64,000 nucleotides of DNA from Arcobacter sp. (GTDB lineage: Bacteria; Campylobacterota; Campylobacteria; Campylobacterales; Arcobacteraceae), in the NCBI GenBank assembly GCA_002869535.1, contig PKUK01000009.1, positions 283,030 to 347,029 on the forward strand, in the 5' to 3' direction. Under the pieces are notes generated by a model. It was not told the DNA's origin and searched no databases. It was given only the letters and a program-made list of their open reading frames with translations. How positions within the stretch are numbered: the first letter of the stretch is position 1; every line of letters begins with the position of its first letter. Below, one piece after another: positions 953 to 63,705 of this stretch. The position numbers and the translations under genes are program-made.

Positions 953-2884
953 TTACTTTAAAAACCCAAGCGCTACACTTAGAACTAATAGTATTACAAG
1001 ACCGTAAACCATCACTTTTAATAGTGACGATAAGTTACCTGATTGAATAGGTCTTGCCTCTTTACCTGATGCATAAACAATTTTTCCAATACCATCAACA
1101 ATAGAGTCAATTACTTTAAGATCAATCTCTTTCCATGCAAACTTACTCATTGCTAAATAAGGTCTGTTTATTACATACTCTAAAAAGTGTGGCATAAAAT
1201 ATTGGTTTGCCAATAGTTTATAACAAGCTCTATTTTTCAGCTTTTCACTAAAGTATGTACCACTTTTTTTATGTTTGAATACTGCAAATAAAATACCTGC
1301 TATTGCAATGGCACTTGTTACTGCTATTAAAATATTTAGTGTTGAGTGGTCAACATGAATTTCAAGTTTTGGTAAAACTTTTGTAATCATTCCCACAAAA
1401 GCATCTTGGAACCATCCTGCGATAATTGCTAAAATAGCAAGTGGTGTCATAGCTGCAATTACAAATGGATAAGTTTCATGTGGGTGATAACCAAACTTTT
1501 TAAAGTTCTCTTCTCCATGAAATACATACATAATAAGTCTAAATTAATAAAATGCTGTAAGCCCAGCTGTTATCCATAAAATTGCCCATAAAATATAAGC
1601 ATGATGTCCAAATGCTACCTCTAAGATTAAATCTTTTGAGAAGAAACCTGCAAGTGGGAAGATACCAGCTAATGCAGTTGAAGCAATTGTCATAATAATA
1701 GATGTTGCTTTCATATGCTTATGAAGTCCACCCATATTTTTGATATTTATCTCATCATTTGTAGCATGCATAACATTTCCAGCCCCTAAGAAGAGAACTG
1801 ATTTAAAAAATGCATGAGTTGCTAGATGAAATAGTGCTACCCAATAAGCTCCAAGTCCAGCAGCTACAAACATATATCCAAGCTGACTTAGTGTTGAGAA
1901 GGCGATGATTTTTTTAATATTAGTTGCCACTAGTGCTTGAGAAGCTGCAAATATTGCAACAAAAGCACCAAGACAAGCTATAAAATATCCAACTTCAGGA
2001 ACAACAGTAAAAATCTCATTTGCTCTTACAACCAAATAAACCCCAGCTGTTACCATAGTAGCTGCGTGAATAAGTGCAGATACTGGTGTTGGACCTTCCA
2101 TTGCATTTGCAAGCCATTGATTAAAAGGAAATTGTGCTGATTTACCCATAGCTCCAATAAATAAAAATGCTGCTATTGCCACAACTAAACCATGAGAAAG
2201 TGTTCCAATTTCAGCAAATACCACATCATATTGTAGTGAGCCTAAGTTCCAATAAATCAAGAATAGTCCAATCAACATACCAAGGTCTGCTACTCTATTC
2301 ATGATAAAGGCTTCATTTGCAGCATACCCAGGAGAGATTGATGAGTATGGAGATAGTGTTGAATATGGTGAGTTATAGATATCACTTGTAAGTGCTTTAT
2401 CCTCTTTGTGATACCAAAACCCAATTAGTCCCCAAGAACATAAACCAACTCCTTCCCAACCTATAAATAGCCCTGCAAAGTTATCACTCATAACAAGAAT
2501 CATCATAGAAAAAACGAAAGCTGATAACCATGCAAAAAATCTATTAAATGATTTGTCGTGGTCCATATATCCAATAGAGTGAATATGTACCATAGTAGAT
2601 ACCATAGTTACAACACACATCATAGTAACACTAACTGCATCTGCTACAAATCCAAATGGAATACTAAGGTTTCCTATAACAATCCAGTCCATAAGTTTTA
2701 CACTTATACTCTCTCCTGTTGAATATATATGAAAAAGTAAGACTAAAGAAGCAAGCAATGAAACAGCTAACATAAAACTTGTGAAAATACCAGTAAACAA
2801 AGTTTTTGGTTTCATTGAAAATAGTGCCGCAACAAGTGATCCTACAAGGGGTGCAAATAGTGCTATGTATATAAACTTTTCCAT
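953..2884 (-). pseudogene. nuoL: NADH-quinone oxidoreductase subunit L, interrupted by one in-frame TAA (complement 1544-1546)
   Basis: ORFs 1544..2884 and 953..1531 are in the same frame: ...ITAGLTAFY*FRLIMYVFHGEENF...; together a full-length NuoL. Confidence 0.9.
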
Positions 2885-3184
2885 CTACCCCTCCATACTT
2901 TGTAAAGTGTCTAAGTTGATTGAATTTTTTCTTTTATATAATAAAATAAGTAATCCCAATCCAATAGCAACTTCACTTGCAGCAATTGCGATTATAAAAA
3001 ATGCAAACATCTGACCTGTAAGGTCTTGATGAAAATGAGAAACAGCAGCAAGTCCTATGTTTACAGCATTTAGCATTATTTCTGTTGCAAAAAATAGCAT
3101 TAAAAGATTTTTTCTTCTAATAACCCCAATCAATCCTATACAAAATAGAAGTGCTGAAAGTATTAAATATGCATTTAAACTCAT
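2885..3184 (-). CDS. nuoK: NADH-quinone oxidoreductase subunit K
   Basis: 99 aa, NuoK motif AASEVAIGLGLLILLY; operon position. Confidence 0.95.
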   Translation of the reverse strand: MSLNAYLILSALLFCIGLIGVIRRKNLLMLFFATEIMLNAVNIGLAAVSHFHQDLTGQMFAFFIIAIAASEVAIGLGLLILLYKRKNSINLDTLQSMEG

Positions 3185-3756
3185 TTGCTATCCTTTTCAT
3201 TTGATGATTCTAGTGCATCTATTTCATCTTCACTTAGTTCTGAATATGATACATCCATCTTTTTCCCTGCTAATATAATTCCACCTATCATTGCAACTAA
3301 TAACATTACAGCTGCAACTTCAAATGGAACTAAAAATTTAGTAAATAAAACAACACCCACATCTTGAGTATTTCCATACTCTGGATGAACTGCATATTCG
3401 GCAATAATATTATCAGATACAATTGGAGAGACAAAAACAATCACAATAATTACAGCTGCCATTCCACTTAGTAAAAAAACTAATCTAGGGTTTTGGATTC
3501 TCTCTTTTACTTCACTCATAGAATCAAAGAACATCATCCCAAAGGCATAAAGTGCCATAACTGCACCTGTATAAACTACAATTTGAACAACACCTAAAAA
3601 GTCAGCATTTAACAAAAAGAAAAAAGCAGAGATAAATATCATACCAGCTGCAAGGGCACTAAGTGCATAAAGTGCGTTATTTGTAAATACAGTTATTGAG
3701 AACATCACTATTGTCAATATTGCAAATAGGTAAAAAGCTACTATTTCAAACATCAT
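3181..3756 (-). CDS. nuoJ: NADH-quinone oxidoreductase subunit J
   Basis: 191 aa multi-TM protein with NuoJ-like sequence; operon position. Confidence 0.92.
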   Translation of the reverse strand: MMFEIVAFYLFAILTIVMFSITVFTNNALYALSALAAGMIFISAFFFLLNADFLGVVQIVVYTGAVMALYAFGMMFFDSMSEVKERIQNPRLVFLLSGMAAVIIVIVFVSPIVSDNIIAEYAVHPEYGNTQDVGVVLFTKFLVPFEVAAVMLLVAMIGGIILAGKKMDVSYSELSEDEIDALESSNEKDSK

Positions 3757-3761
3757 CTCTC

Positions 3762-4388
3762 CTAATACTCTAATGGAGTTTTTTTGATTTTTTCGTCAGC
3801 ATCTGGAGATACTGCACCAAAACCTGGATACTCTTGTTGAGAAGCCAATTTATCAAGTGGAGTCAATAAATCGTCTTTAACCACAAAGTGAGCTCGTTGT
3901 TCACTTGCATTTTCATATCTTCCACCATGAACAATGGCAAGCTCAGGACAAACCTCAGCACAATATCCACAAAAGATACATCTACCAAAGTTTATTGTGT
4001 ATTCTAAAACCTCTTTTCTAGAGTTTTCATCAATTCTTGTATCCATTCTAATACAATCAGAGATACAAATCTTTTCACAAAGTCCACAACCAATACATCT
4101 ATTTTCTCCCGATTCTAAAAGTCCTAGAAGTTTATGTACAGCTCTATATCTTGGTCCTATTGGAAGTTTTTCAATTGGATATTGAACTGTGTGCATATTG
4201 TTATTAAACAATGCTTCTTTCATCATGATAAAAGTAACTTTTAGTCCTGTAAAAAGTTCACCTTTTATTGATCTTTTAAATATCTGTTTAAACTCTTGCC
4301 ATGGAGTTTCAGGGAAACTATTCTTTTGAATATTGATATAATCATGTTCGCTTATATTTCTATTTTTTAATTCATCTAATTTCATCAC
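3762..4388 (-). CDS. nuoI: NADH-quinone oxidoreductase subunit I (2x[4Fe-4S])
   Basis: CIGCGLCEKIC and CIFCGYCAEVCP motifs. Confidence 0.95.
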   Translation of the reverse strand: MMKLDELKNRNISEHDYINIQKNSFPETPWQEFKQIFKRSIKGELFTGLKVTFIMMKEALFNNNMHTVQYPIEKLPIGPRYRAVHKLLGLLESGENRCIGCGLCEKICISDCIRMDTRIDENSRKEVLEYTINFGRCIFCGYCAEVCPELAIVHGGRYENASEQRAHFVVKDDLLTPLDKLASQQEYPGFGAVSPDADEKIKKTPLEY

Positions 4389-4393
4389 TGCTC

Positions 4394-5386
4394 CTAAAAC
4401 ATCATCACAAAGCCAGTAATTAAAATATTAACTACTGCAAGTGGCATTAAGATTTTCCAACATAACCACATCAATTGATCTGGTCTTACATGTGGCCAAG
4501 AAGCTCTTGTCCATAAGAAGAAAAATATTAAAAATGATACTTTTAAAATAATCGCTAATCCACCAGGGATAAACCATAAATCATTGTATCCACCAAGAAA
4601 AATTAGTGAAATCAAAAATGAGACTGTAAATAGATTCGCATACTCACCTATAAAAAACATCCCCCATCTCATACCTGAATACTCTGTTGCATACCCTGCA
4701 ACAATTTCAGCTTCATGCTCAAGTAAATCAAAAGGTGTTCTATTTGTCTCTGCAAACCCAGCCATTACAAAAAGAACAAATGCTAAAGGCTGTGTCCATA
4801 CTATCCAAGAAGTGAAGCCTTCACTTTGATAAGCATTTATATCAATCAAAGATAAAGAACCAACCAGCATAAGTGGAGCTAAAAGTGCAAGTCCAGATAC
4901 AACTTCATACGATAGTAGTTGAATGGCAGTTCTCGCACCTCCTAAAAGTGCCCACTTATTTCCAGAACTCATCCCAGCTAAAAGTGGTCCATAAAGTCCA
5001 ACTGAAGCAACACCCATTACAAATAATACACCCACATTAATATCTGCAATAATTGGTCTTATTGTATAACCAAAAATCTCAAACTCAGGGAAAAATGGAA
5101 CTGCTGTCATAGCAATAAAAGCAGTTGCTGCTGTGATAATTGGTGCAACCATAAATATAGGTTTTACAGAGTTTTGAGGTATAAAGTCCTCTTTTGTAAA
5201 TAGTTTTATACCATCACAAACAAGTTGCAAGATTCCATAGGGTCCAACATTTGTAGGCCCCAATCTTCTTTGCATAAAAGCCAATATTTTTCGCTCAATA
5301 TAAGTTGTAAAACCGGCAATTGCAGAAAATACTGCTAATATAACAATAGCTTTTACAACTGTTTCTATTAAAATACTTGTCTCCAT
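4394..5386 (-). CDS. nuoH: NADH-quinone oxidoreductase subunit H
   Basis: YIERKILAFMQRRLGP, AETNRTPFDLLEHEAEIVAGYATEYSGMRWGMFF. Confidence 0.96.
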   Translation of the reverse strand: METSILIETVVKAIVILAVFSAIAGFTTYIERKILAFMQRRLGPTNVGPYGILQLVCDGIKLFTKEDFIPQNSVKPIFMVAPIITAATAFIAMTAVPFFPEFEIFGYTIRPIIADINVGVLFVMGVASVGLYGPLLAGMSSGNKWALLGGARTAIQLLSYEVVSGLALLAPLMLVGSLSLIDINAYQSEGFTSWIVWTQPLAFVLFVMAGFAETNRTPFDLLEHEAEIVAGYATEYSGMRWGMFFIGEYANLFTVSFLISLIFLGGYNDLWFIPGGLAIILKVSFLIFFFLWTRASWPHVRPDQLMWLCWKILMPLAVVNILITGFVMMF

Positions 5387-5387
5387 A

Positions 5388-7862
5388 TTACACCTTTTTC
5401 ACATTTGCACTTGTAAATCTATATCCAGTAAAAAGTGCTTTTGTATTTAACTCTTTCTCAAAAGTTGATACATAAGCAATTTTTCCTGATACTTGATTAT
5501 CAGCATAAACATTTACTTGGATTTCACATCCATTTGCACTTAATAAGACTTTATCTCCAACACTTAGTTCTAACTCAGCCAATAATGTCTCATTTGCAAA
5601 CATTCCACTTTCTAAATCATCTTTAAACTCATGGGCAATTGCTGTGAATTCATTGAATTGATTGATTGGGTTTGCTTTGTAAATAGTGATTTGTTCATCT
5701 GTTATTTCAAAAGTTTGGTTTTGTTTTTCACCTAGTTCATCATTTGTCTCTATGTCTAAAGAATCTAATACATAACCTCTATTTTCACTCCAGTCATTTG
5801 AGAAGTAGTTAGTTAAACTATCAAACTCAACTGCTTTAAAGCCTTTCGCTACTGGTAAAGATTTTGTATATTCTATTGTGTGTTCAACTTCTGCTTCTAA
5901 TAAAACATTTGCAATGTCATTTAAAACATAACCGTTATAAGGTAAGGCTACATTTGTAGGAACAACTCTTTTATCTATATTTGTAAAAGTTCCTTCTTGC
6001 TGATTAAGAGCTGGCATATCTAAATCACCATCTCCTAGGGCTGATAATTGGAAATCTGCTTTTACGTTATATCCTACGCAATAAGACCCTTCTTCTTCAT
6101 CTAAATCACAAATCAAGCTCACACCTAAAGTGTTTGTAGAAGTTGGGATAATCACTACTTTAAATTGTGTATGTTTTTCTATCAAGGCAGCTAGTTTTGC
6201 AAGATTTTGTGAGTTTGCATGAGTTATTAAATCTTCACCTAAAATCAAAGTGTATCTATCTTTTTTATCTTTCATAGCTTCAATTGTATCAATTAGTGTT
6301 GCATCACAATTTATCTCATCTAAAAGTCTTGTATATTCAAACTCAACTTCTTTAGTAACTTTTTTAGGAACCATTTTAGTTACTTCTTTTTCTTCACCTG
6401 TTTCTTCATCTTTTACTACAGATACAACTTTTTCTTTTATCATCTCTGTAATAGATTTTAATCTTGTCTCTTTATATGAATCAAGTGTTGCTTGAATAGA
6501 TTCTGGTAAATCAGCTCCAAATTTATCTAAAATAAAATATAAAACAGACTCTTCAGCAAGTGGGTTGTGATAGATAAACTCTGTTGTTTTTCCTCTTTTA
6601 CCACACTGTTCCATTACTGGATCACCTATTGGATGAAAATATAGTCCAGCTCCTTTATTCATAACAACTGAGTTATTAAAGGCATATTTTGTATTTGGAG
6701 AATCAGATTTTAAATAAGACCCAACAGAAATTACAAAGTTTGAGCTGTGGATATCTTTTAAGTCTGCACTATAAAGAGTTTTTCCACTAACGCTTGAATA
6801 TGCTTCAAGGAACTTTTTGTAAGCTAAGGCATCACTATTTATAAGTTTATATCCAAACTTCTCTTTTAGCTTTTGTAAAATATGAGCCTCTTCATTTGTA
6901 ATAAATGAGTTAAACTTAATAGTATCAGCTTTTTTAAATGCCTCAATTGCTTTATCAAAAGCTATTTCATCTTGACTTTCAACTCTGTTTTCAAAATCAT
7001 AAGCAAATCTAGCAGCACCATTTAGTGATGCATAGTGGTGTTCATTTGTTACTCTATAGATTTTTTTAACATCATGGTTTACTATTGATTCATGTTTTAC
7101 TTCATAATAGATAAGTGAACAATCACTTGAGTGAGAGTTTGATGCAGGTATTCGTGTTAGTTCCCATGAGTTTGTTTTATATTGGAAATCATTTGATACA
7201 AGCGCTCCAACAGGACAAACAGAGATACATTCACCACAATCAACACACTTATCTTCTTCAAAGCCAATAAGTGATTTGTTTAGTTTATTCCACATAGAGT
7301 AAGCATCTTTTGGCATAGTAGTTTTAAACTTACCTTCAATAGCCTCTGCCCCTCTTTTTACAGTTGAAAGAGCATTTGAACCAATCATATCTTTACATAC
7401 TGTTACACACTTTTCACAAACAATACAAAGTCCTGGGTCATAGTTCATAACTCCCCAGTGTTCAGTTGGTCTATTTACATCTTTTATGGCATAACTTTGA
7501 GAATCAACTTTTTGATAAAGAGTATAGTTTTGAAGTTCACAATCACCACTTTGGTCACAAACTCCACATTGTAATGGATGGTTTACATCATAAACCTCAA
7601 TTATTGCACGTCTTTCTTTTTCTATATTTTCAGTTGTAGTTGTAACTTCCATGCCATCTTTTACTTTGGCATTACAGGCATAGATTTGTTTTCCAGCAGA
7701 TTCTACAAGACATAATCTACAGGCAAGTGTAGGTGAACATCTAGTTAAATAACAAAGTGCTGGTATAAATATTCCATTTGCACGGGCAACATTTAATACT
7801 GTTTCTCCCTCTTTAGCTTTTAGCTCTTTTCCATCAATTGTTAAAGTAATCATTTCACTCAT
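5388..7862 (-). CDS. nuoG: NADH-quinone oxidoreductase subunit G
   Basis: N-terminal [2Fe-2S] domain CYLTRCSPTLACRLC, CVDCGECISVCPVGAL; 824 aa with a charged insertion. Confidence 0.92.
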   Translation of the reverse strand: MSEMITLTIDGKELKAKEGETVLNVARANGIFIPALCYLTRCSPTLACRLCLVESAGKQIYACNAKVKDGMEVTTTTENIEKERRAIIEVYDVNHPLQCGVCDQSGDCELQNYTLYQKVDSQSYAIKDVNRPTEHWGVMNYDPGLCIVCEKCVTVCKDMIGSNALSTVKRGAEAIEGKFKTTMPKDAYSMWNKLNKSLIGFEEDKCVDCGECISVCPVGALVSNDFQYKTNSWELTRIPASNSHSSDCSLIYYEVKHESIVNHDVKKIYRVTNEHHYASLNGAARFAYDFENRVESQDEIAFDKAIEAFKKADTIKFNSFITNEEAHILQKLKEKFGYKLINSDALAYKKFLEAYSSVSGKTLYSADLKDIHSSNFVISVGSYLKSDSPNTKYAFNNSVVMNKGAGLYFHPIGDPVMEQCGKRGKTTEFIYHNPLAEESVLYFILDKFGADLPESIQATLDSYKETRLKSITEMIKEKVVSVVKDEETGEEKEVTKMVPKKVTKEVEFEYTRLLDEINCDATLIDTIEAMKDKKDRYTLILGEDLITHANSQNLAKLAALIEKHTQFKVVIIPTSTNTLGVSLICDLDEEEGSYCVGYNVKADFQLSALGDGDLDMPALNQQEGTFTNIDKRVVPTNVALPYNGYVLNDIANVLLEAEVEHTIEYTKSLPVAKGFKAVEFDSLTNYFSNDWSENRGYVLDSLDIETNDELGEKQNQTFEITDEQITIYKANPINQFNEFTAIAHEFKDDLESGMFANETLLAELELSVGDKVLLSANGCEIQVNVYADNQVSGKIAYVSTFEKELNTKALFTGYRFTSANVKKV

Positions 7863-8653
7863 AATGCATCAACCTTTTCAATTTTTACTTGCTTATATCT
7901 ATACCCTTGTGATAAAAAACTCTCATCATCATTTTTTACACCACATAAAGCAATAGTTCCTTGTAAGTTTTTATCTAGTTTAAAAGTTCTTTGAAGAGTC
8001 TCATTTTTATAATTTATAGAAACATTATCCTTATTTGACACCTTAGCAACTCTTGAAAATGATTCACTTCCATATATAAACTCATCTTCACTGCTAACAT
8101 ATTTATAAGCCACTGTTCCATTATAAGATTTGAGTTCTGCCACATCTTCTAACTTGGCACTTGCTTGTAAAATAATATCTGATAATAACATAATATTAAA
8201 TCCACTAAACTCTTCAAGAACTTTTATCATAGAAGAGATATTGGCAACTCTTTCGTGAGTAAATAAATCTTCTCCCAAAATAATAGTTTTAGTAGTTTTA
8301 TTTGAAGAACGCTTTACCATCTCTTCAAACTCTTCTTCTCCCGCACTACTCTCAGCTGAAATATATCCAATATCTAAATCAGATAAATACTCTTCTAAAT
8401 CATTATTTCTATCTTTAGTAAAATACTCTAGAAGCAATGCTAAAATACCCTCTTCACTTCCAACTTCATATTTTACAAACTGTGTACAGTAAAGTTTTAA
8501 ATCAATATCATCAATTGGATGCATATAGATAAACTCTGCCTCATTTTTTGCAATTGCCTCTATAATCAAATCATTCATTTTTGGTGAATCTTTTGAAATC
8601 ATTGCCCCTAGGCAGACAATATAATCACTTTTTGAAACTAATTCTAAATTCAT
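7859..8653 (-). CDS. Campylobacterota-type Nuo subunit in the nuoF position (HP1265-like)
   Basis: 264 aa between a NuoE-like small subunit and NuoG; no NADH/FMN-binding NuoF motifs visible. Confidence 0.7.
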   Translation of the reverse strand: MNLELVSKSDYIVCLGAMISKDSPKMNDLIIEAIAKNEAEFIYMHPIDDIDLKLYCTQFVKYEVGSEEGILALLLEYFTKDRNNDLEEYLSDLDIGYISAESSAGEEEFEEMVKRSSNKTTKTIILGEDLFTHERVANISSMIKVLEEFSGFNIMLLSDIILQASAKLEDVAELKSYNGTVAYKYVSSEDEFIYGSESFSRVAKVSNKDNVSINYKNETLQRTFKLDKNLQGTIALCGVKNDDESFLSQGYRYKQVKIEKVDAL

Positions 8654-8656
8654 ATT

Positions 8657-8956
8657 TTACTCTTCATCATCATCGTCATCATCTTCATCTGACTCTTCTT
8701 GAACTTCTTCAACTAATCTTGGCTCTGGTTTTACTTTTTTAACAACTATTGTCCAATCTACTTCATTGAACTTAATTGAGTTCATAAGTGTATATCCAGC
8801 TTCATAAATCTCATCTGCTGATTTTTGGATATGTGTAAAATCTCCTATTTCAAAAAGAAATATTGCATTTTCACCATCTTTTATATCTTTATCCATTAGT
8901 TCTAACATTCTAGAGTAGAAATTATCTTTTAATGGTCTTAAATCATATCTTTTCAT
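8657..8956 (-). CDS. NuoE-like small subunit (HP1264-like) with acidic C-terminal tail
   Basis: 99 aa in nuoE position; ends EEVQEESDEDDDDDDEE; lacks a [2Fe-2S] NuoE Cys motif. Confidence 0.7.
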   Translation of the reverse strand: MKRYDLRPLKDNFYSRMLELMDKDIKDGENAIFLFEIGDFTHIQKSADEIYEAGYTLMNSIKFNEVDWTIVVKKVKPEPRLVEEVQEESDEDDDDDDEE

Positions 8957-8968
8957 AAACCTACTCCC

Positions 8969-10195: not shown

Positions 10196-10198
10196 GAT

Positions 10199-11020: not shown

Positions 11021-11529
11021 TATACTAACCTCTTTTTCTTTTTAGATAAAAATGCAGACTCTCTTCTTATTTTCTTTTGAAGCATCATAAGAGCATATTG
11101 TAGTGTTTCAGGTCTTGGTGCACAACCTGGAAGATAAATATCTACAGGTATTACTCTGTCTACCCCTTGAACTGTGGCATAAGTGTTAAACATACCACCA
11201 GTATTTGCACAACTTCCCATAGAGATAACCCATTTAGGATCTGGCATTTGGTCATATAGTCTTCTCATATATTCAGCATGTTTTTTTGTAAGTGTTCCAG
11301 CTACAACGATAACATCAGCTTGTCTTGGACTAGCTCTAAATATTGTTCCAAATCTATCGAAGTCAAATCTTGAAGCCCCTGTTGCCATCATCTCAATTGC
11401 ACAGCAAGCCAAACCATAAGTTAAAGGCCATAAGGAGTTACTTCTTCCAAAGTTTACAATTTTGTCAACAGTTGTAAGAGCAATAGGTGCTCCCCCATCT
11501 TGAAAATATTTTATTTTATGCTGTGCCAT
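11020..11529 (-). CDS. nuoB: NADH-quinone oxidoreductase subunit B
   Basis: [67 protein letters not shown]. Confidence 0.97.
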
Positions 11530-11900: not shown

Positions 11901-12113
11901 ATTTATATCCTTAATTTCTTTGTATTTAAAGAATTTAGTTTTTTCATTTTAATTTATATTCAGCTAGATACTAGCAAAAATATTTTAAATCTAGACTTAA
12001 TAAATCTACCGCAAAACTGCGTTAGTTTAAAAATAGCTTAGCCTAAAATCAGTCATTCTTAACATTGTTATTTAAAAAATTTATATTTATAGGTAAAAAA
12101 CAATAATTAATGG

Positions 12114-19844: not shown

Positions 19845-20262
19845 ACCTACACATCTTTTGATTACCTCTTCTACTATAAATCCCATAAAGTGCCTTTTGT
19901 AAAATATGGATTTCATAACACTCTTTTTTATTTGTATCTTTTTTATTTAATTTTTTAACTATTTCATAGATATCAATAGCTTTTTAATTTAAAAACTCTC
20001 CATTAAAAGGTTTATGCTTAGATACAAAAATTTTATCTGCATCTAGAACATAATAACTTTTGTGTTCTTCTCCATGATATTTTACAATATAGTTTTCCAT
20101 AAACTTTATATCAAAAGGTTCATTATAACTATTGTATAAACCAAAAGAGATATTTGCTCTTTTTTCACTTAAGTTACTCATTTCCCATGTTCCTAATAAA
20201 TCTTTAGGTGATATTGCAAAAATTGAAGAAATTGTAAATATAAGTATAAAAATTATTTTCAC
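19843..20262 (-). pseudogene. Small secreted hypothetical protein interrupted by in-frame TAA (complement 19984-19986)
   Basis: 92 codons, TAA, then 46 open in-frame codons (KAIDIYEIVKKLNKKDTNKKECYEIHILQKALYGIYSRRGNQKMCR) to a TAA that abuts the terminator. Confidence 0.65.
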
Positions 20263-24517: not shown

Positions 24518-25585
24518 TTACTTTTGTTTTCTTGGGATTACAACTGTGTAATCTAAATCTAAAACTACATTTTTAATATACTTTCCATTTTCATCGAAAG
24601 TAGATTCAACATCTTGGGCTTTCATATTTTTAAGACCAACCGTTCTTAATCTTAAAAGTCCAATATCATCTCTATTATCAAGTTCAATAGTCTCAATAAT
24701 TTCAGTAAATGCATAAATAGTATCACCTGCAAATGTTGGGTTTGCATGAGCTCCACTATTTATTGAGTAAAGCCATTGTGCATTTTGCAAACCATTAAAA
24801 GAGTTACTTCTTGCTATTGAGATAACATGACCTCCATACATAAGTCGCTGTTTCATAGGGCTACTTTGCATCATAAAATCATCAAAATGAACTTTTGCAT
24901 TATTTTGATAAAGTTTAGTTGCTAGTGTATGGTCACTATTATCAACAGTGATTCCCTCTGGATGGTTTAATCTTTCACCTGCTTCATAATCTTCAAAAAA
25001 GTATTTTCCACCAGTTGCATCTGTGTCAATATCTTTTTGAACTGGGATATTAATACTACTTCCTATTGGTAAAGTTTTTTCAAAAGTAGGAACATCATTT
25101 GTACCTAAGATTGTCTCTTTATCTTTTTTGTGAGCCATAACCCATCTTTTAAGATTTAAAACCTCTTTTTCATCTTGGTTATATCCAATAGAGTGAACAT
25201 AAACTACTCCACTTTTACCATTTGAGTTCTCTTTTAAGCCAATTACTTCAGTTTCTAGTCTTACAGTATCACCTACAAATACAGGATTAGGAAAAGATAC
25301 TTCTGCATAACCTAAGTTTGCAATTGCATTTAAAGAGATATCTTGAACTGATTTTCCAAATGTTAAATGGAACATCAATAAATCATCAAGAGGTTTTTTC
25401 TCATAACCCATCTTTTGTGCTAACAAATCAGATGAATGTAAAGCAAATCTACTTCCAGTTAAGGCGATGTAAAAAGATACATCACCATCTGTTATTGTTC
25501 TAGGAAGTGGATGAATTATTTTTTGACCGATAGTAAAATCTTAAAAAAAGTTTCCAAAATTGATTTTAGTGCTTATTTTAGACAT
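24518..25585 (-). pseudogene. MaoC-family (mesaconyl-CoA-type) hydratase interrupted by in-frame TAA near the N-terminus (complement 25541-25543)
   Basis: MSKISTKINFGNFF*DFTIGQKIIHPLPRTITDGDVSFYIALTGSRFALHSSDLLAQKMGY... continuous with ORF 24518..25426. Confidence 0.85.
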
Positions 25586-38160: not shown

Positions 38161-40053
38161 ATGGAATATGATGTAATAGTAGTAGGTGGTGGTCATGCTG
38201 GTATTGAAGCTTCACTAGTTAGTGCTAGAATGGGTAAAAAAACTCTACTAATTACTATGCTAGTTGAACAAATAGGTGCAGCTTCTTGTAACCCTGCAAT
38301 TGGAGGTCTAGCAAAAGGTCACTTAGTGCGAGAGTTAGATGCTATTGGTGGTGAAATGGGACTTTGTACTGATAGTGCTGGTATTCAATTTAGAGTATTA
38401 AATGCCTCAAAATGTGCAGCTGTTCAAGGTAGTCGAGCACAAATTGATATGGATAGATATAGAGAGTATATGAGAGAAGTTTGTCATAATACTGCCAATC
38501 TTGAAATCTACCAAGATGAAGTGACATCTTTACTAACATCAGATGAAAATGAACTTGAAGTATGTGGTGTAAAAACAAAACTTGGAGAAGAGTTTAAATC
38601 AAAAAAAGTAATCCTGACAACTGGAACTTTTATGAAAGGTCTTATTCATATAGGAAGCTCAACTTATGATGCAGGTCGAGCATGGGAATTACCTTCAACT
38701 ACACTATCAACTCAGTTAAAAGAGTTTGGACTAAATGTAGGAAGACTAAAAACAGGAACACCTGCAAGAATCGATGCAAAATCAATTGACTTTTCAAAAA
38801 TGGAAGAACACGGTGGAGATGAAAAACCAACACCTTTTTCATTTAGAACAGATAAAAAAACATTTAATCCAAAACAACACCCATGTTATATCACATATAC
38901 GAACTTAGGAACGCATGGCAAAATTTCTAGTAATTTTCATAGAGCTCCAATGTTTACAGGACAAATTGAAGGACGAGGGCCAAGATACTGTCCAAGTATT
39001 GAGGATAAGGTAAGTAGATTTTCAGAACGTGATAGACATCAACTATTTTTAGAACCACAAACAGCTATGTGTACAGAGTATTATATCAATGGACTTAGTA
39101 CTTCATTACCAATTGATGTTCAAAAAGACATGATTCACTCAATCAATTGATTAGAAAATGCCAAAATAGTTAGATATGGATATGCTATAGAGTATGATTA
39201 TATAGACCCTACTGAGCTTAAACATACTCTAGAGACAAAGAAAGTAAAAAACCTATACCATGCAGGACAAATCAATGCAACAACAGGTTATGAAGAAGCG
39301 GCATCACAAGGACTAATGGCAGGAATCAATGCAGCACTTGCAATTGATGGAAAAGAACCATTTATCCTAAGACGTGATTAAGCATATATAGGTGTTCTAA
39401 TTGATGACTTAGTTACAAAAGGAACATCTGAACCATATAGAATGTTTACAAGCCGTGCTGAGTACAGATTACTTCTGAGAGAAGAAGGAGCTGATTTACG
39501 TCTAAGTCACTATGGACATGATTTTGGTCTTATAGATGATGAAACTATTCAAAAAGTGCAATTCAAAGACAAATGCATAAAAGAAGCAATCGATTTTATG
39601 AAAGATGAATGGTTTACTTCTAAAAAAGAGAATCTAGAACTTCTAGAAAAACTCGGACAAGATAAAATCAAAGATAGAGTTTTATTAGTTGACATTGTAG
39701 GAAGAAACGGTGTAACAAATGAACATCTTGATGAGTTATGTCCACAATTCAAAGAGTTAAATGATTATATAAAAGAGCAAATAATCATCGAAGCCAAATA
39801 TTATAGATATGTTGAAAAACAACAAAAACAAATAGAAAAAATGAAAAAAATGCTTCAATTAAAAATACCAGAGAATTTTGACTATAGAGTAATCCCAGGC
39901 CTTTCAAATGAAGCTGTGGAAAAGCTAGAAAAGTTTAAGCCCCCTACACTTTTCAACGCAGGAGAAATTTCAGGTATAACACCAGCAGCAGTTGATGTTA
40001 TACATTTGTATATAAATTTACAAAATAAATCAATAAAAAATGAAGCTATATAA
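38161..40053 (+). pseudogene. mnmG: tRNA uridine-5-carboxymethylaminomethyl modification enzyme MnmG, interrupted by in-frame TGA (39148-39150) and TAA (39379-39381)
   Basis: [11 protein letters not shown]...; frame continues through both stops: [26 protein letters not shown] ... [35 protein letters not shown]. Confidence 0.95.
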
Positions 40054-41573: not shown

Positions 41574-42419
41574 ATGCAAGTTTATATTTATGCAAAAAGT
41601 GGTCATAACATTGGTCTTGAAGCAACAAGAAGATGTGCAGCAGTTGCCTCAATATTAAAAGAGTTTGATCCTATATTATGTACTTGCGATTTTAGAGCTG
41701 GTGTTTATGCTAAAGAAGAGCTAGGTATTAAAAAATATGTAAGCGTTGATGTTTTAACGAACCTTCCAAATATGATGAAAAGAGGCGATATCTTAATCTT
41801 TGATTCAGATGAGACAACAAAATTTATGGAAACTCATATGAAAGATTTCTGCTCATTACTTTATAAAATAGGAGATGATATTCCAGATTTTATTATAGAT
41901 ACTTCTCTTTTTGTAAAAAATGAAAGTCCAAAATTAGAAAAGACTTTTTTCTTTGGCGATGATGATTACGAAAACAAGTTACTTGAACTTACAAATAATA
42001 GTTCAAAACAAGAACTTAATTTACTATTAGGGCACTACTTCTTTTTAGGTAATGAATCAAAACTTGCTGCATATTTTAATATGCTATTTACAGATGAAGA
42101 GTATGTAAATACCATATAAAATTCAAAGTTTTTATTAACAACATCACTTCAAAGTTGCTTTGAATCTATTGCTTGTGGGAACAATCCTATTTTACTTTTA
42201 AGACAAGACAAAGAGTATAATATGGAATTTATTTCAAATTTAAACATTCCTACAATAAACTATAACGAAAACTTAGATAAAATAGTCTCAGAATTTGAAG
42301 AAAAAATAATTTCTTATCCAAAACTAAATGAAATAGATAATTTTGATTTTACTCCTATCATAGAACAAGTAAGTAAAAAAATAGATGCTTATAATAAACT
42401 CTCAAGCATAGAATCATAA
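41574..42419 (+). pseudogene. Conserved hypothetical protein interrupted by in-frame TAA (42117-42119)
   Basis: ORFs 41574..42119 and 42222..42419 share a frame and the 34 codons between them are open (NSKFLLTTSLQSCFESIACGNNPILLLRQDKEYN). Confidence 0.75.
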
Positions 42420-51951: not shown

Positions 51952-51954
51952 GAC

Positions 51955-53100: not shown

Positions 53101-53183
53101 CTAACTATTTTATCTCTAGATGGTTACAAAAATATTACTTAAATTGATGCCATAATGTAATCATTTACAATTACAATCAAGCT

Positions 53184-53912: not shown

Positions 53913-53917
53913 AATAG

Positions 53918-54664: not shown

Positions 54665-54757
54665 AATAGTTTTAAATATTAAAATTTATTAAATATTTCC
54701 ATCATATCTTAATTGCGATTTTGTTATAATCGCCATATAAAATATTAAAGAATTAAC

Positions 54758-57700
54758 ATGTCACAAATACCCGAATTTACGCACTTACACTTACATACAG
54801 AATACTCACTTTTAGATGGTGCTAATAAAATAAAAGATTTAGCTAAAAAGATAAAAGAATTAGGAATGAAAAGTGTTGCCATGACAGACCATGGTAATAT
54901 GTTTGGTGCTATTGACTTTTATAAAGCGATGAAAGCAGAAGGGATAAAACCCATAATTGGGATGGAAGCTTATATTCATAATTCAGAAGAATTAGATGAT
55001 AAGTCCCATAGAAAAAGATTTCACTTATGTTTATATGCAAAAAATGATGCAGGATACAAAAACCTAATGTTTTTGACTAGCCAAGCATATATGCATGGAT
55101 TTTACTACTATCCTAGAATAAATAAAAAGATATTAAAAGAGCACAGTGAAGGACTTATATGTAGTGCTGCTTGTTTGCAAGGTGAAGTAAACTGGCATCT
55201 AAATACACAAAGTGAAAGAAATGTAAAAAATGGTGCAAAAGGTTATGAAGAAGCAAAAAAGATTGCTTTAGAATATAAAGAGATATTTGGAGATGACTTT
55301 TACTTGGAAATAATGAGACATGGCATTTCAGACCAACATTTTATTGATGACCAAATTTTAAAAATATCAAAAGAGACTGGCATAAAAGTTGTTGCTACAA
55401 ATGATACTCACTATTTAAAACAAAAAGATGCCGATGCACATGAGGCATTCATGTGTATTGCCATTAATAAACTTTATGATGATCCAAATAGACTAAGACA
55501 CAGTGTTCATGAGTTTTATTTAAAATCATCAGAACAAATCTCAAAATTATATGCAGATATCCCAGAAACAATCTATGCTACTCAAGAAATAGCTGATAAA
55601 TGTAATTTAGAGATAAAACTAGGTGATCCAACTCCTCCAAACTTCAAATTTACTAGAGAAAAATCGCAAGAGCAAGGCTTAACTCTACCAGAACCAGAAA
55701 AAGAATACTCCCTAGAAAATGATAAGATTTTATTTATTCATGAGTGTTGGCAATGTTTAGAAAAAAGACTTGAAATAGTTCCAGAAGAGAGACATCAAGA
55801 GTACAAAGATAGATTACAAGTAGAGATTGATATTATCAATAATATGAAATTCCCAGGATATATGCTTATTGTTTGGGACTTCGTAATTGTTGCAAAACAA
55901 ATGGGAATACCAGTTGGTCCAGGAAGAGGATCTGCTGCTGGAAGTTTAGTTGCTTTTTCTCTTGCTATTACAGATATTGACCCTATTCCTTATGGTTTAC
56001 TTTTTGAGAGATTTCTAAACCCAGAAAGAATATCTATGCCAGATATCGATATGGATTTCTGTCAAGCAAGACGTCAAGAGATTCTTGATTATGTTATTGA
56101 TAAATATGGTAGAGCCAATGTTGCTCAAATTATCACTTTTGGTAAACTTCTTGCAAAAGGGGTTATTAGAGATGTTGCAAGAGTTCTTGATATGCCATAT
56201 TCTCAAGCAGATGCCATGGCAAAACTTATTCCCGATGAACTAGGAATAAACTTAACATCATCATATGAAAAAGAGCCAAAGATTAAAGAGCTTTGTGATT
56301 CAAACCCACAAGCAAAAAGAGTTTGGGAATTTGCCCTAGCCCTAGAAGGACTAAATAGAAATGCAGGAACACATGCAGCTGGTGTTGTTATTTCAAATGA
56401 ACCATTATGGAATAAAACACCTCTGTTTAAACCTTCAGGAATGGAAACCCTTGCAACCCAATACAATGGAAAGTATGTAGAAGATGTGGATTTAATCAAA
56501 TTTGACTTCTTGGGTTTAAAAACCTTAACAGTAATTGAAGAAGCAAATAAATTAATAGAACAAAGACATGGAAAAAGAGTAGATTTTCTTACTGTTGATG
56601 TAAATGATAAAGGTGTTTATGACCTAATTCAAACTGGAAATACTATTGGGCTATTCCAAATAGAGTCCGATGGTATGCAAGACTTATGTAAAAGATTAAA
56701 ACCATCAAATTTTGAGGATATAATCGCCGTACTTGCACTTTATAGACCAGGTCCAATGGAGTCTGGGATGCTTGATGACTTTATTGATAGAAAACATGGT
56801 CGAGCCCAAATAAACTACTTTTATGATGAATTTGACGCACCTTTACGTCCAATTTTAGAGACTACTTATGGGGTTATTGTTTACCAAGAGCAAGTTATGC
56901 AAATCGTACAAACTATTGGTGGTTTTAGCCTTGGTGGTGCGGATTTAGTTAGACGGGCTATGGGTAAAAAGATTAAAGAAGAGATGGATAGACTAAAAGG
57001 TGAGTTTGCTATTGGTGGAGTTAAAAAAGGATTCCAAAAAACTCACTGTGAAGAGCTATTCGACCTTATTGTAAAGTTTGCTGGATATGGGTTTAATAAA
57101 TCTCACTCAGCAGCATATGCCCTAGTTACTTTTTATACTTCATATCTAAAAAAATATTATCAATCAGAGTTTATGGCAGCACTTTTAACTTTGGAAAAAG
57201 ATAACACAGACAAAGTTGTAAAATATGTAGATGAAGTAAAAAGATTAAAACTAGACCTTTTCCCACCTGATATAAACAAATCAGACCTTGTATTTTCTGC
57301 TAAAAAGATTGATGGTCAAGAAGTTGTAATGTTTGGAATGGGTGCCATAAAAGGTGCTGGAGATGTGGCAATTAAATCTATTTTAAAAGAGAGAAATGAA
57401 AATGGCAATTATGTAGATTTTGCAGATTTTATTTCCAGAGTTGATGGAAGTAAAGTGAATAAACGAGTATTTGAATCCCTAGCAAAAGCTGGTGGCTTTG
57501 ATACTTTTGGCTATTCAAGACGGTCAATTTTAGAGCAAATTGAGCTTATAAATGAAACTGTTGGAAAAGCAATGGCTGCAAAAAAAATGGCAACAGGATC
57601 ACTATTTGGAGATTCACAAGAGTTAACTAAAATTGAAGTGCAACTTGAAACTTTTGAAGAGTATGAATTAAAAGAGTTATTAGAATTAGAAAAACAATCT

Positions 57701-58303
57701 TTAGGGTTTTATGTATCGGGACATCCACTTGATGAGTATAGAGCACAACTTGATGAGATAAGTTATACCTTATCTTCTGAAATTGAAGATTTAGGAGATG
57801 GAAGTGAGGCTCTGTTCATAGGAAAAGTTGAAACCATAACAGAACGAATCTCTAAAAAGGGAAATAAATTTGCCATATTGAGCCTTATGGACTTCCATGG
57901 AAATATAGAGCTTATGCTTTTTGAAGATAGATTAAAAGAGTTGAAAGAAGATTTTAATTTAGATGAACCTATAGCATTTAAAGTAAGAATCACAAAAGAT
58001 GATCAATTTACAAGAATCAATTTGCGAAAAATAGAGACTTTAAAAGAAGCAAAAAAAGAAAAAATCAAAACAAAACAAAAAGCAATAGCAGAGCCACCTA
58101 TAACAGTTGCAGTAAACTTTACAAATGATGATAGAATCATGTATGATCTTTTTGAAATCATTGCAAATAATCAAGGTAAAAGAGAGTTAAAACTATTGGT
58201 AAAATCAAAACTAGGTGATATTGAGCTTGATAGTGGGTTTAAAGTTACCTCAAATATAGAAAGTCTTGTAAAATCACTTGATGGAGTATTTATAGCACAA
58301 TGA
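54758..58303 (+). CDS. dnaE: DNA polymerase III subunit alpha
   Basis: PHP domain FTHLHLHTEYSLLDGANKI; GPGRGSAAGSLVAFSL; MPDIDMDFC. Confidence 0.97.
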   Translation: MSQIPEFTHLHLHTEYSLLDGANKIKDLAKKIKELGMKSVAMTDHGNMFGAIDFYKAMKAEGIKPIIGMEAYIHNSEELDDKSHRKRFHLCLYAKNDAGYKNLMFLTSQAYMHGFYYYPRINKKILKEHSEGLICSAACLQGEVNWHLNTQSERNVKNGAKGYEEAKKIALEYKEIFGDDFYLEIMRHGISDQHFIDDQILKISKETGIKVVATNDTHYLKQKDADAHEAFMCIAINKLYDDPNRLRHSVHEFYLKSSEQISKLYADIPETIYATQEIADKCNLEIKLGDPTPPNFKFTREKSQEQGLTLPEPEKEYSLENDKILFIHECWQCLEKRLEIVPEERHQEYKDRLQVEIDIINNMKFPGYMLIVWDFVIVAKQMGIPVGPGRGSAAGSLVAFSLAITDIDPIPYGLLFERFLNPERISMPDIDMDFCQARRQEILDYVIDKYGRANVAQIITFGKLLAKGVIRDVARVLDMPYSQADAMAKLIPDELGINLTSSYEKEPKIKELCDSNPQAKRVWEFALALEGLNRNAGTHAAGVVISNEPLWNKTPLFKPSGMETLATQYNGKYVEDVDLIKFDFLGLKTLTVIEEANKLIEQRHGKRVDFLTVDVNDKGVYDLIQTGNTIGLFQIESDGMQDLCKRLKPSNFEDIIAVLALYRPGPMESGMLDDFIDRKHGRAQINYFYDEFDAPLRPILETTYGVIVYQEQVMQIVQTIGGFSLGGADLVRRAMGKKIKEEMDRLKGEFAIGGVKKGFQKTHCEELFDLIVKFAGYGFNKSHSAAYALVTFYTSYLKKYYQSEFMAALLTLEKDNTDKVVKYVDEVKRLKLDLFPPDINKSDLVFSAKKIDGQEVVMFGMGAIKGAGDVAIKSILKERNENGNYVDFADFISRVDGSKVNKRVFESLAKAGGFDTFGYSRRSILEQIELINETVGKAMAAKKMATGSLFGDSQELTKIEVQLETFEEYELKELLELEKQSLGFYVSGHPLDEYRAQLDEISYTLSSEIEDLGDGSEALFIGKVETITERISKKGNKFAILSLMDFHGNIELMLFEDRLKELKEDFNLDEPIAFKVRITKDDQFTRINLRKIETLKEAKKEKIKTKQKAIAEPPITVAVNFTNDDRIMYDLFEIIANNQGKRELKLLVKSKLGDIELDSGFKVTSNIESLVKSLDGVFIAQ

Positions 58304-59088
58304 AACATATCCTTATAACAAATGACGATGGCTTTGATGCAATTGGAATAAAAGCTTTAATAAAAGCACTAAGCCCCATAGCAAAAATTACAGTTGTTGC
58401 ACCTGCTAAAAATAAGTCTGCTTGTGGCCACTCTTTGACACTTGATAGACCACTTAGAATGATTAATGTAAATGATGATTATTATAAAATTGATGATGGA
58501 AGTCCTACTGATTGTATTTTTATATCTTTGAACAATCTTTTTAAAGAGGGATACAAACCTGACTTAGTAATTAGTGGTATAAATATTGGTGCAAATATGG
58601 GTGAAGATATTACTTATAGTGGAACTGCAGCAGCAGCCATGGAAGCTACACTTCAAGGTATTCCTGCAATTGCAATCTCACAAGTATGTAATGATAGATG
58701 TGAAGATATTACTAGTGAAAAAGATTTTGTATTAGCAAAAAAAACAATTGCAAAAATTGCTAAGAAAATATTAGAAAATAAATTCCCTTTAGAAAATAGA
58801 AGATTTCTAAATATAAATATACCTCCAATAAAAGAAGAAGAGTGCAAGGGTATTAAAATAACAAAAGCGGGATATAGAGTTTATGGGAATGATACTCATA
58901 GACATCTAAATCCAAGAGGTGAAGAGTTCTACTGGATTGGACTTCATCCTTTGATTTGGGAGAGAAGTGAACATTTAGATTGTGATTTTGAAGCCATCAA
59001 AGGAAATTTTATCTCAATTTCTCCTATAATGTTAGATATGACTTCATATGATGACATAACAAATTTAAATAATTGGATAAAGGAATAA
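58300..59088 (+). CDS. surE: 5'/3'-nucleotidase SurE
   Basis: ILITNDDGFDAIGI, VVAPAKNKSACGHSLTL, VISGINIGANMGEDITYSGTAAAAMEA. Confidence 0.96.
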   Translation: MKHILITNDDGFDAIGIKALIKALSPIAKITVVAPAKNKSACGHSLTLDRPLRMINVNDDYYKIDDGSPTDCIFISLNNLFKEGYKPDLVISGINIGANMGEDITYSGTAAAAMEATLQGIPAIAISQVCNDRCEDITSEKDFVLAKKTIAKIAKKILENKFPLENRRFLNINIPPIKEEECKGIKITKAGYRVYGNDTHRHLNPRGEEFYWIGLHPLIWERSEHLDCDFEAIKGNFISISPIMLDMTSYDDITNLNNWIKE

Positions 59089-59093
59089 CGTAA

Positions 59094-59354
59094 ATGAATT
59101 TTAAAAAGGATCTAATTTGCAATATAGAAAAACTTGTTGGCGAATTAAAAGATGAAAAAGAGTTAAAAGAGATTTTAAAAAGAAAATTCACAAAAAAAGA
59201 GTATAAAGTTTTTGTAGCATCAGAAGAGGGTCAAGACTTCGAGCAAATTTGTGAGTTAATTGATGAAGAGTTAGAAAGAGTTGAAGAACTTCACAAAAAT
59301 GCCATAAAAAAAATCAACCAAGAAAAAATAAAAAAAGAACTAGTAGATTTATAA
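59094..59354 (+). CDS. Small hypothetical charged protein
   Basis: 86 aa, translationally close to surE. Confidence 0.6.
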   Translation: MNFKKDLICNIEKLVGELKDEKELKEILKRKFTKKEYKVFVASEEGQDFEQICELIDEELERVEELHKNAIKKINQEKIKKELVDL

Positions 59355-60731
59355 TTATAATGAAGGAGGAACTTTTCCTACTTCATTAGAAACTAGTTCC
59401 TCATAAAACTTTTTTGAGAACTTCACCAATACCATTCCAGCAAATTTATTATCAATCTTGTTATAAAACTCAACTCTGTAGATTTCACCTTTTCTATCTA
59501 AAGAAAATCTTTTTATAATATCATCTTTTTCAATATTGAGTCCCGATTCATTTCTAAAGTTTTTATTTACATATCCAATAACATTTACTCTATACTCATT
59601 TGGAAAGACATAAAAACTTTTTCCTACATCAACCAAAGAACCTATTTCTATATTTTTATCTTCTCCATCAATCTTGAATTTTATATTCTCTTTCTTTTCA
59701 CTAACTTCTAAATAATCTGGTTCTAAAACTGATAGTCTTCTATTTCCATAATGTATTGCATATGTTGAATTACTATTTTTGATAACTGTCATTACAGGAC
59801 TACTTGGTTTAAAATCAATTGTTCCATCTTTTTTTACTGGAAAATAGCCAATATAACTTCTCACTTCAGACAAAGGAAGTTTTATCTTATCATTATAAAA
59901 TGAGATATAAATATCATTATCTATTACATTTCTCAAGGCTATTGGTTCTAAATCAAACTTTCTTTTAAATTCAATCCCCATAATATTCATATACTCTTCA
60001 AGAGCAAGTAGATGATAATAAGTTCTTTCATGCACAGGTAACTCTTTACTTGCTTCATTACCAAAAGCTGCTTTACCATTATTTATTGCATAATAAGTTA
60101 AGGTTTTTTCCATCTCCTTATCACCAAGTTTAGTTTTAGTGTTATGTAGATGATAAATATCCTCTTCTCTAATCAAACTTTCATTTACTTTTTTACAAAT
60201 TCTTTTCCCTATCTCTTCTAAATTTCCATATGCAGGTACATTTAGGCTTGATTGGTCAATAATAGAACTCTGTCCCCATTTATAAGGAGAGTGGTCTTTA
60301 TCTATATATTTATTTCTAAAATATCCACTTCCATCATGCAAATTAAGTATTAATTTAACTTCTGGTTTTTTAATCAACTCTTTTATTCTTTTTACATCAA
60401 TATAATCAGGGTCTTCTTCTGATATATATGCGAACTTTCTATTCATATCTCCAAAGGGACCACGGGATCTTTGAATAATAGAATTAAAATTTAAATTTGG
60501 AACAATCCAAACAGAACCTTTTGTTATCTCATAATGCGTAGCAATCAAAGATGCAGCCATAAAACCACCAGGTTCATCACCTTGTATGCCACCTACTATT
60601 AAAAGAGTATTCTCATCTTGAATACCTTTTTTAATAAGTTTGAAATTTAAGTCACTACTATTTGCATGCAAATTTTGTAATAATATAAAAATAAATAAAA
60701 ATCTAAATAACTTTAACATGCCAAGGTTCAT
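59355..60731 (-). CDS. Csd4/Pgp1-like M99 zinc carboxypeptidase (peptidoglycan/cell shape)
   Basis: VGGIQGDEPGGF (QxxE zinc motif), LILNLHDGSGYF; signal peptide. Confidence 0.85.
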   Translation of the reverse strand: MNLGMLKLFRFLFIFILLQNLHANSSDLNFKLIKKGIQDENTLLIVGGIQGDEPGGFMAASLIATHYEITKGSVWIVPNLNFNSIIQRSRGPFGDMNRKFAYISEEDPDYIDVKRIKELIKKPEVKLILNLHDGSGYFRNKYIDKDHSPYKWGQSSIIDQSSLNVPAYGNLEEIGKRICKKVNESLIREEDIYHLHNTKTKLGDKEMEKTLTYYAINNGKAAFGNEASKELPVHERTYYHLLALEEYMNIMGIEFKRKFDLEPIALRNVIDNDIYISFYNDKIKLPLSEVRSYIGYFPVKKDGTIDFKPSSPVMTVIKNSNSTYAIHYGNRRLSVLEPDYLEVSEKKENIKFKIDGEDKNIEIGSLVDVGKSFYVFPNEYRVNVIGYVNKNFRNESGLNIEKDDIIKRFSLDRKGEIYRVEFYNKIDNKFAGMVLVKFSKKFYEELVSNEVGKVPPSL

Positions 60732-61530
60732 ACCTTACTCCATCCTTATTACCAATTGTATATCTCATATCAATATATTTTAAACTTTTCATCTCTGTAA
60801 ATTCACTAGTATGTGCAAATCTTTCTGTAAAATTGTCAGCACCTAAACCTTTTTTACCAACATCAAAGTCCCCAACTGAGTGATATGTAAAAGCAGGAGG
60901 AGCAATTGATCTTGAAGCCATTGATAAGTTCATATCTACTGATTTTAACTTATCTAAGAATAGTCTCATTTGTTTCACAACAGATCTAACACCTGAAGTT
61001 AAATAAATAGTTGGACCGATATCTTTTTTTAGTTTTAAATATGTCTCTTTTGGTTTTCCCTTAAATACATAATGGCCAGTATAAGGTATTTTTTCAATAT
61101 CATTTTTATTTATTTTAGAGCTTAGATTTATAGTTGTTCTTTCACCATAAAACCCATGGTAAGAAGGCTCATAATAAAAAATATATTCTATAAAAGCTAA
61201 CTCATCACTTGTAAAAATGGTTTGGTCTTTTGAATATCTTAAAACATTTATTGCTTCATCAAATGATATAATATTAAAATTTCCATATCCCACATAACGT
61301 TGGATATAGTTAAGTTTCTTCTGAACATTTAAAAAAGATTCATGAAACTTTTTATCTAAAAATACATCTTTTGAGATATTAATACGATTTTCACTAGCAA
61401 AAATTATATCTTTTGGAGTAAGTAACTCTTCATCTTCTATTATTAATGAACTTGCACTTCCAATAATTGGTAAAAGAGTTGAACCAATTGCAAAATTTCT
61501 TGCTTTTTCTAAAAATTATCTTCTATTCAT
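60703..61530 (-). pseudogene. M15-family D-Ala-D-Ala carboxypeptidase-like protein with Tat-type N-terminus, interrupted by in-frame TAA at codon 5 (complement 61516-61518)
   Basis: MNRR*FLEKARNFAIGSTLLPIIG...; M15 motifs TYHSVGDFDVG and EPWHVKVI. Confidence 0.8.
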
Positions 61531-61541
61531 TTTTTCTTCTT

Positions 61542-61805
61542 TTATAAAACCATTTTTACTGAATCGTGATTACCCAAAAGCTCATATATAGTTTTTCTAT
61601 CATCATCATTATGAACTATTAAATCTAAAGTATAACTTTTAAATTTACCCTTTGAACTAACCTTTGATTCTACTAACTTGTGCTCTCGTTCTGTTATAAC
61701 TTCTTTAATAACTTTTTTTATATTAACAGTTTCAACAACAACAACTTTATATACCCAACTACAAGGATAATCTAATTCTAATTTATGCTTATTTAAATCT
61801 ATCAT
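61542..61805 (-). CDS. DUF493 (YbeD-like) protein
   Basis: 87 aa, [12 protein letters not shown]...[38 protein letters not shown]. Confidence 0.75.
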
Positions 61806-62272
61806 CTAATAAAATCTCCACTTTTACCACCTGATTTACTCTCCAACTGTACATTTGATATAACCATTGATTTATCAATAGCTTTTACCATATCGTAAAT
61901 TGTAAGTAAGCCAATACTTGTACCAGTTAAAGCTTCCATCTCAACACCAGTTTGTCCATTTAATTTTGCTGTAACAATTAATTTAAATCCAGGTAAAGAT
62001 GGTAACTCTTCAATATCACAGTTTATTCCACTCAATAACAAAGGATGACACATAGGTATTAACTCACTTGTTTTCTTAACTCCCATAATTGAAGCAATAA
62101 CAGCAGTTTGAAGAACTGGACCTTTTTTTGTGTTATTAGTAATTATAGCATCATATGCCTCTTTTGACATAGATATTTGCCCACTTGCAATAGCAACTCT
62201 TGTTGTCTCTTTTTTATCTGACACATCTACCATTTTAGGTCTATTATTTTCATCTAAGTGTGTTAAATCCAA
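61802..62272 (-). CDS. moaC: Cyclic pyranopterin monophosphate synthase MoaC
   Basis: [57 protein letters not shown]. Confidence 0.96.
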
Positions 62273-62387
62273 AGTTTTTCCTAAATATCTTAAATTATGG
62301 GATTATATCAAAATAGAGTTAAATTGTAATTAAGTATTATTTAAATATAATGCATCCCTAAATTTTAAAAGAAAGTGGGTGATTATA

Positions 62388-62600
62388 GTGCCAGGTATTA
62401 AAGTTAAAGATAGCGAATCATTCGACGAAGCTTATAGAAGATTTAAAAAGCAATGTGACAGAAACCTAATCGTTACTGAAACAAGAGCAAGAAGATTTTT
62501 TGAACCTATGACTGAAAAGAGAAAGAAACAAAAAATTAACGCTAAGAAAAAAATGCTTAAAAGATTGTATATGCTTAGAAGATACGAATCTAGACTGTAA
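62388..62600 (+). CDS. rpsU: 30S ribosomal protein S21
   Basis: GTG start; [25 protein letters not shown]...[15 protein letters not shown]. Confidence 0.95.
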
Positions 62601-62616
62601 TAGTTCACTATTACCT

Positions 62617-62649
62617 AAAAGGGTCTCTAGAAATAGAGGCCCTTTTTTT
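62617..62649 (+). terminator. Rho-independent terminator downstream of rpsU
   Basis: AAAAGGGTCTCTA-GAAA-TAGAGGCCCTTTTTTT. Confidence 0.9.
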
Positions 62650-62751
62650 ATGTCTTTTTTTATAATACCTCTAAATTAAAATAATTTTATAATCTTTATA
62701 TTTATGAATTATTAAGATAAATAATGGAATCATTTTTATAAGGAGGATGTT

Positions 62752-63705
62752 ATGAAATATCTATTCAGAATCCTAATAACACTTATGCTTCCTTTGACTT
62801 TATATTCTTTTCATGATTATGAAAAAGAAGAACACTCTCAAGAAAACACTTCAATTGTTAATAAAATGCTCAATTCAACAGAAACTTATCTTAAATATAC
62901 TTATGACAAACTCAATCAATACTCAAAAGTATTGGATGAAACCCTTACTGATGAAAAAAGTTAATATAAATATGAAAACAGTTCCATTCATATAGAAACA
63001 TACTACAACAATACACAAACAAAAGGAAACACAAGTGGAGTTACTTTTAATGTAAAAGTGAGACTTCCACAACTTAAAGAGAAACTAAAATTAGTCATAG
63101 AAAATGATGACAATAAAATTGGGAAAGAGTATGAAGATAACAATGAAAGTGTTCCTTATAAAGATGATAAAAGTAGTTTAGCATTAGAATATGATAAATA
63201 TAAAAAATACTATAACTTAAGAACAAAAGCTGGAGTTAAATTAAACTCTTTTGTTTTTATCAATAGTAGTGTTAGTAAAGAATTTGATTTGACAAATAGT
63301 TGGAATTTTGTTGCTCAAGAGAAAATTGAATTAAATAACAAAAACAATTTTGAAAATAGTACCACACTCTCTTTAAAAAAACATATCAATAATCAATTAC
63401 GGTTTATAAATACAAATCAATATTATTGGAATAAAAAAGCAAGTGATAATAATATATATAACTCATTGAGACTTACACATATACTTTCAAGTAAAAATAC
63501 CCTCAATTATGTAACATCAATATCTTCAAATGATAATCAAACAAATTTTAAAACTAAAAACTATGATGCATATATCTCATATAAACACTATATAAGAAAA
63601 TGGCTCTATTATGATATTGTTCCCTCTTTATATGGGGAAAGAGAAGATAACTTCAAAATGCGTTATGCATTTAAATTTAGATTAGGTATAGTTATTGGTA
63701 AATAG
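62752..63705 (+). pseudogene. Hypothetical outer-membrane-type protein interrupted by in-frame TAA (62962-62964)
   Basis: Signal peptide; ...DETLTDEKS*YKYENSSIHIETYYNNTQTKGNTSGVTFNVKVRLPQL... one frame, strand-rich repeats. Confidence 0.75.

Follow-up and report, generated by a model that had tools for sequence, protein, structure and literature searches.

Premature stop codons of one substitution class in an Arcobacter genome as probable errors of the deposited consensus

The window analysed here is a stretch of 64,000 nucleotides that forms the terminal part (283030-347029) of contig C4 (PKUK01000009.1) in the Arcobacter sp. assembly GCA_002869535.1. This genome, G000, has 2.68 Mb in 12 contigs, with a completeness of 99.96% and a contamination of 0.67%. 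Seven otherwise intact frames of the window are interrupted by eight in-frame stop codons, seven TAA and one TGA. For comparison we used two congeners, G001 (one contig of 3,192,235 bases) and G002, which show synteny with the window across 60 kb, with a DNA identity of ∼85%. The eight stops described in the first-pass annotation were all confirmed in position and frame, and from each of them the read-through frame continues without gaps to the next stop. Stops common to close relatives had been named there as evidence that would count against the pattern; none is common to G001 or G002 wherever alignment is possible, that is, over 60 kb.

Two of the affected genes, nuoL and mnmG, are core genes. 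On either side of a TAA at codon 447 (1544-1546), where both congeners have TCA, the read-through frame of nuoL (953-2884, minus strand) matches the full-length NuoL of the congener at 83% identity. The mnmG frame (38164-40053, plus strand), found in a single copy by a DNA search of the genome and 91% identical at the protein level to the intact congener, carries a TGA at 39148-39150 opposite GGT (Gly) and a TAA at 39379-39381 opposite GAA, the codons being the same in both congeners. A MaoC-family hydratase is interrupted early by TAA (25541-25543, minus strand; GAA in both congeners), and a VanY/M15-like carboxypeptidase by TAA at 61516-61518 (minus strand; GAA/GAG in the congeners), within an N-terminal twin-arginine-like segment (MNRR*FL). 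The remaining three TAA codons lie in a small, uncharacterised protein that is predicted to be secreted and shares only 57-59% identity with the congeners (19984-19986, minus strand; Pro codon CCC/CCT), in an uncharacterised protein whose frame is intact in both congeners (42117-42119, plus strand; TCT, Ser), and in another uncharacterised protein without homologous DNA in the congener stretches compared (62962-62964, plus strand). Further apparent premature stops at 4396, 37338, 43904, 47804, 49224 and 51957 proved to be gene ends and not interruptions. The VanY/M15-like gene (60703-61554, with a twin-arginine-like start) is not intact in G001 either, where an AGA-to-TAA change of unrelated origin interrupts it, and it may be dispensable in the genus. 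A second NuoL-type protein, 36% identical, is encoded elsewhere on contig C4 (21605-23461), apparently in a second complex I-like cluster.

The first-pass annotation had accounted for all eight stops by G-to-T transversion. The congener codons encode Glu, Ser or Gly at six of the eight sites, with 19984 and 62962 standing apart. A G:C>T:A change leads directly from the congener codon to the stop at 1544, 25541, 39379 and 61516, and, judging from the codons, it likely did so after one silent step at 39148 (GGN) and 42117 (TCN); on the coding strand the change is C>A rather than G>T at nuoL 1544 and at 42117. The prediction of Gly and Glu at the two mnmG stops agrees with the congener codons. 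The GAA-to-TAA change proposed for the other stops agrees with the congener codons at 25541 and 61516 but not with the TCT at 42117, and for nuoL the alternative route from TCA is the one borne out by both congeners.

The pattern extends beyond the window. We compared 1.26 Mb of G000 (C4 and C5 nearly whole, and samples of the other contigs) with 0.96 Mb of G001, counting G001 genes with a G000 match of at least 60% identity. An in-frame stop was found in G000 for 53 of 542 matched G001 genes (∼10%). The reverse comparison returned 12 of 551 genes with a stop in G001, which on inspection were mostly antisense or upstream-extension open reading frames. After filtering, 52 stops were left in 1.1 Mb of compared G000 sequence, with 183,000 aligned codons (39 TAA, 7 TGA and 6 TAG), which extrapolates to ∼200 in the whole genome. 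The residues opposite them are Glu (25), Ser (13), Gly (7) and others (7), so that Glu, Ser and Gly make up 45 of the 52. No frameshifts were detected among the ∼50 interrupted genes in the congener comparison. A homology-free de novo scan of coding frames put the density of strong interruptions at 11.9 per Mb for G000, against 1.0 for G001 and 0 for G002. The stops are spread evenly along the contigs (Kolmogorov–Smirnov p=0.92); no clusters in low-coverage patches were seen along the sampled contigs, and the sampled stretches of G000 contain no near-identical repeats that would allow an internal comparison.

Across the sampled genome, 30 of the 36 premature stops that lie one step from the congener codon in well-aligned stretches are G:C>T:A, in strong support of the transversion reading. 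The expected share of this class is 12% by congener substitution rates (p∼1e-22) and 26% by codon opportunity alone (p∼6e-13); the excess is not accounted for by chance. The affected G is balanced between strands (23:22). The trinucleotide TCA (TGA from the G side) accounts for 22 of 29 context-resolved cases, with 0.35% of susceptible TCA sites hit against 0.08% elsewhere (7/8687; p=0.0004). When an extended motif was sought around the stop sites, only the following A emerged. The excess is shared by radical missense G:C>T:A changes, with 54 in the forward and 23 in the reverse direction, and 8 against 0 at TCA. Over the whole alignment, with selection ignored, total C>A is symmetric (4035 in G000, 4297 in G001) because divergence swamps the signal, which is visible in nonsense and radical missense changes alone; nonsynonymous and synonymous changes tabulated by class in the three-genome alignment of the window gave no clear excess.

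Nonsense changes at TCA are not rarer than radical missense ones (p=0.34), and therefore no selection on the changes is visible. Their density is also alike at different levels of conservation: 27 per 76,958 codons at a local identity of at least 15/16 and 46 per 131,029 at a local identity of at least 12/16. By family assignment, the genes with stops include ispH, glmS, hemA, secF, infB, prfB, mqnE, nuoL and mnmG. For ispH, glmS and hemA, which are established as indispensable in other bacteria, no full member of the family besides the interrupted copy was found anywhere in the G000 genome. The glmS gene carries two stops, one opposite TCA and the other opposite AAA; its counterparts in the other 15 genomes that were examined are intact. 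The argument from essential genes rests mainly on these three: infB function could be rescued by internal starts, and the premature TGA of prfB (release factor 2) removes the final residues alone. With essential genes broken in this way, it is very unlikely that the changes occurred in cells.

The ends of different G000 contigs, in several combinations (among C1-C5 and C8-C12), have exactly 99 identical bases in common; the last 99 bases of the window (63902-64000, the end of C4), for example, are identical to an end of C1. Exact end overlaps are a mark of short-read de Bruijn assembly, here presumably with k of ∼99-100. Together with the small number of contigs, which reach 740 kb, the overlaps imply good sequencing depth, and independent read errors would therefore not reach the consensus. 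Close to its end, contig C7 carries a 16S rRNA gene (L218:521-1921) that includes a run of N and reads only 1401 bases.

We consider it probable, from the sequence comparisons, that the stops are errors of the deposited consensus and not features of the living genome. G>T errors usually stem from 8-oxoguanine (8-oxoG). Guanines of the source DNA would have been oxidised and paired with A, and the sequenced material would have been copied from few template molecules, through low-input or whole-genome amplification or in a library with heavy duplication. Most reads at the affected sites would then bear the wrong base, which would so enter an otherwise good short-read assembly, where the stop-making changes alone would be conspicuous, the missense and silent ones being hidden in the 15% divergence from relatives. 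Because good depth rules out random read error, the errors should already have been established in the DNA that went into sequencing, and the route we infer is the amplification of few, damaged template molecules. Of the explanations offered in the first-pass annotation, a library or assembly artefact thus fits best, although not in the form of random read errors of a genome with low coverage. The single class of change, the lack of insertions and deletions (indels) and the lack of an imprint of selection, whether on essential genes or between missense and nonsense changes, are as seen in ex vivo 8-oxoG artefacts, in the form in which PMC12390751 relays them from Costello et al. 2013. A literature search returned nothing relevant on nonsense changes in metagenome-assembled genomes.

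Several points weigh against a consensus artefact. Ordinary random 8-oxoG read error is not the route, and the amplification step is itself inferred. The case is built on the assembled consensus and not on allele fraction, depth or read orientation. Missense C>A changes as a whole are almost equally frequent in the two directions (619 vs 580), and the total excess is below the prediction of a uniform rate, the two being reconciled solely by context dependence. The preferred context also differs: as relayed by the same source, ex vivo artefacts are low-fraction read errors, often at CGG or GGC according to the oxidant (PMC12390751), whereas G000 is a deep-looking consensus in which TGA/TCA is preferred. 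One oxidant may differ from another in the context it favours (PMC12390751), so that context does not separate the cases strictly. The oxidative signature SBS18, in turn, favours ACA, CCA, GCA and TCT (PMC9270427). Because the TCA/TGA preference matches neither CGG/GGC nor SBS18 exactly, the chemistry of the damage is uncertain even if the verdict of an artefact is right.

Among the alternatives, the one that survives best, although we regard it as unlikely, is a real and recent burst of G:C>T:A mutation in a living lineage, in which oxidised guanine goes unrepaired without the oxidised-guanine (GO) system (MutM, MutY). The changes are of a single class, as in MutY/MutM-deficient bacterial mutators, and the assembly resembles deep short-read data. 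Like SBS18 and SBS36, the signatures of MUTYH deficiency (PMC9270427), they are dominated by C>A, show a preference for a following A and a strong excess of nonsense; unlike in those signatures, TCA is the leading context, TCT contributes little and essential genes are inactivated. None of 26 genomes from the order, G000, G001 and G002 included, yielded a MutM/Nei-type glycosylase (PF01149), and proteins of MutY length with the HhH-GPD domain are absent from all three genus members and present in few of the 26 genomes. The whole GO system thus seems to be lacking in the genus. This absence is ancestral and cannot alone explain G000, because the congeners without both genes are intact; a loss specific to the affected lineage, as the mutator explanation of the first-pass annotation would have it, was not found. 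Living mutators, moreover, keep their essential genes, whereas in G000 the single-copy ispH, glmS and hemA are interrupted and secF, infB and prfB are hit, a gene set with which a free-living cell could hardly survive. Nor is nonsense depleted relative to missense, and no indels accompany the changes. No report on mutY or mutM of Arcobacter was found in the literature library searched.

It is less likely still that base calling or polishing went systematically wrong at a sequence or methylation motif, with no part played by DNA damage. The uniform spread of the stops and their single class with a trinucleotide preference would agree with it. However, no extended motif accompanies the following A, only a small fraction of TCA sites is hit, and the 99-base overlaps point to short-read assembly, not to a long-read consensus. 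Slightly less probable again is that the burst was real and very recent, in a lineage lacking the GO system and with hundreds of genes interrupted, indispensable single-copy ones included, and that the cells survived by polyploidy or pervasive readthrough.

Suppression or readthrough, by which suppressor tRNAs or weak termination would translate the stops and keep the genes functional, is in our view very improbable, despite frames that are otherwise intact and conserved and a release factor 2 gene that itself has a premature TGA. All three stop codons are hit, and Glu, Ser and Gly would have to be inserted, which one suppressor cannot supply. Among the 46 tRNA matches in G000 we found no suppressor: every anticodon that ARAGORN read is a sense one, apart from that of a normal selenocysteine tRNA (tRNA-Sec). 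The close relatives lack the stops, and recoding would not lead one to expect the excess of same-class missense changes. Beside the intact tRNA-Sec gene lies a selB-like gene that has a premature stop (contig C5, positions 289736 and 291233); we take this gene to be selB, and the lineage presumably uses selenocysteine.

Ordinary pseudogenisation of dispensable genes through reductive evolution is equally improbable, for although G000 is smaller than its congeners (2.7 vs 3.2-3.3 Mb) and the M15-like gene is broken in G001 too, it is contradicted by the single substitution class, by interrupted genes that show no mixture of lesions and no frameshifts, and by highly conserved flanks, highly conserved stretches being hit as often as others.

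If the stops are indeed errors of the consensus, a species-representative genome would carry ∼200 false stops by extrapolation, together with missense errors, unseen by completeness scores. Comparing nonsense with radical missense changes by trinucleotide against a congener would be a cheap screen for such genomes. Pseudogene counts, searches for recoding and estimates of evolutionary rate based on them would be misled.
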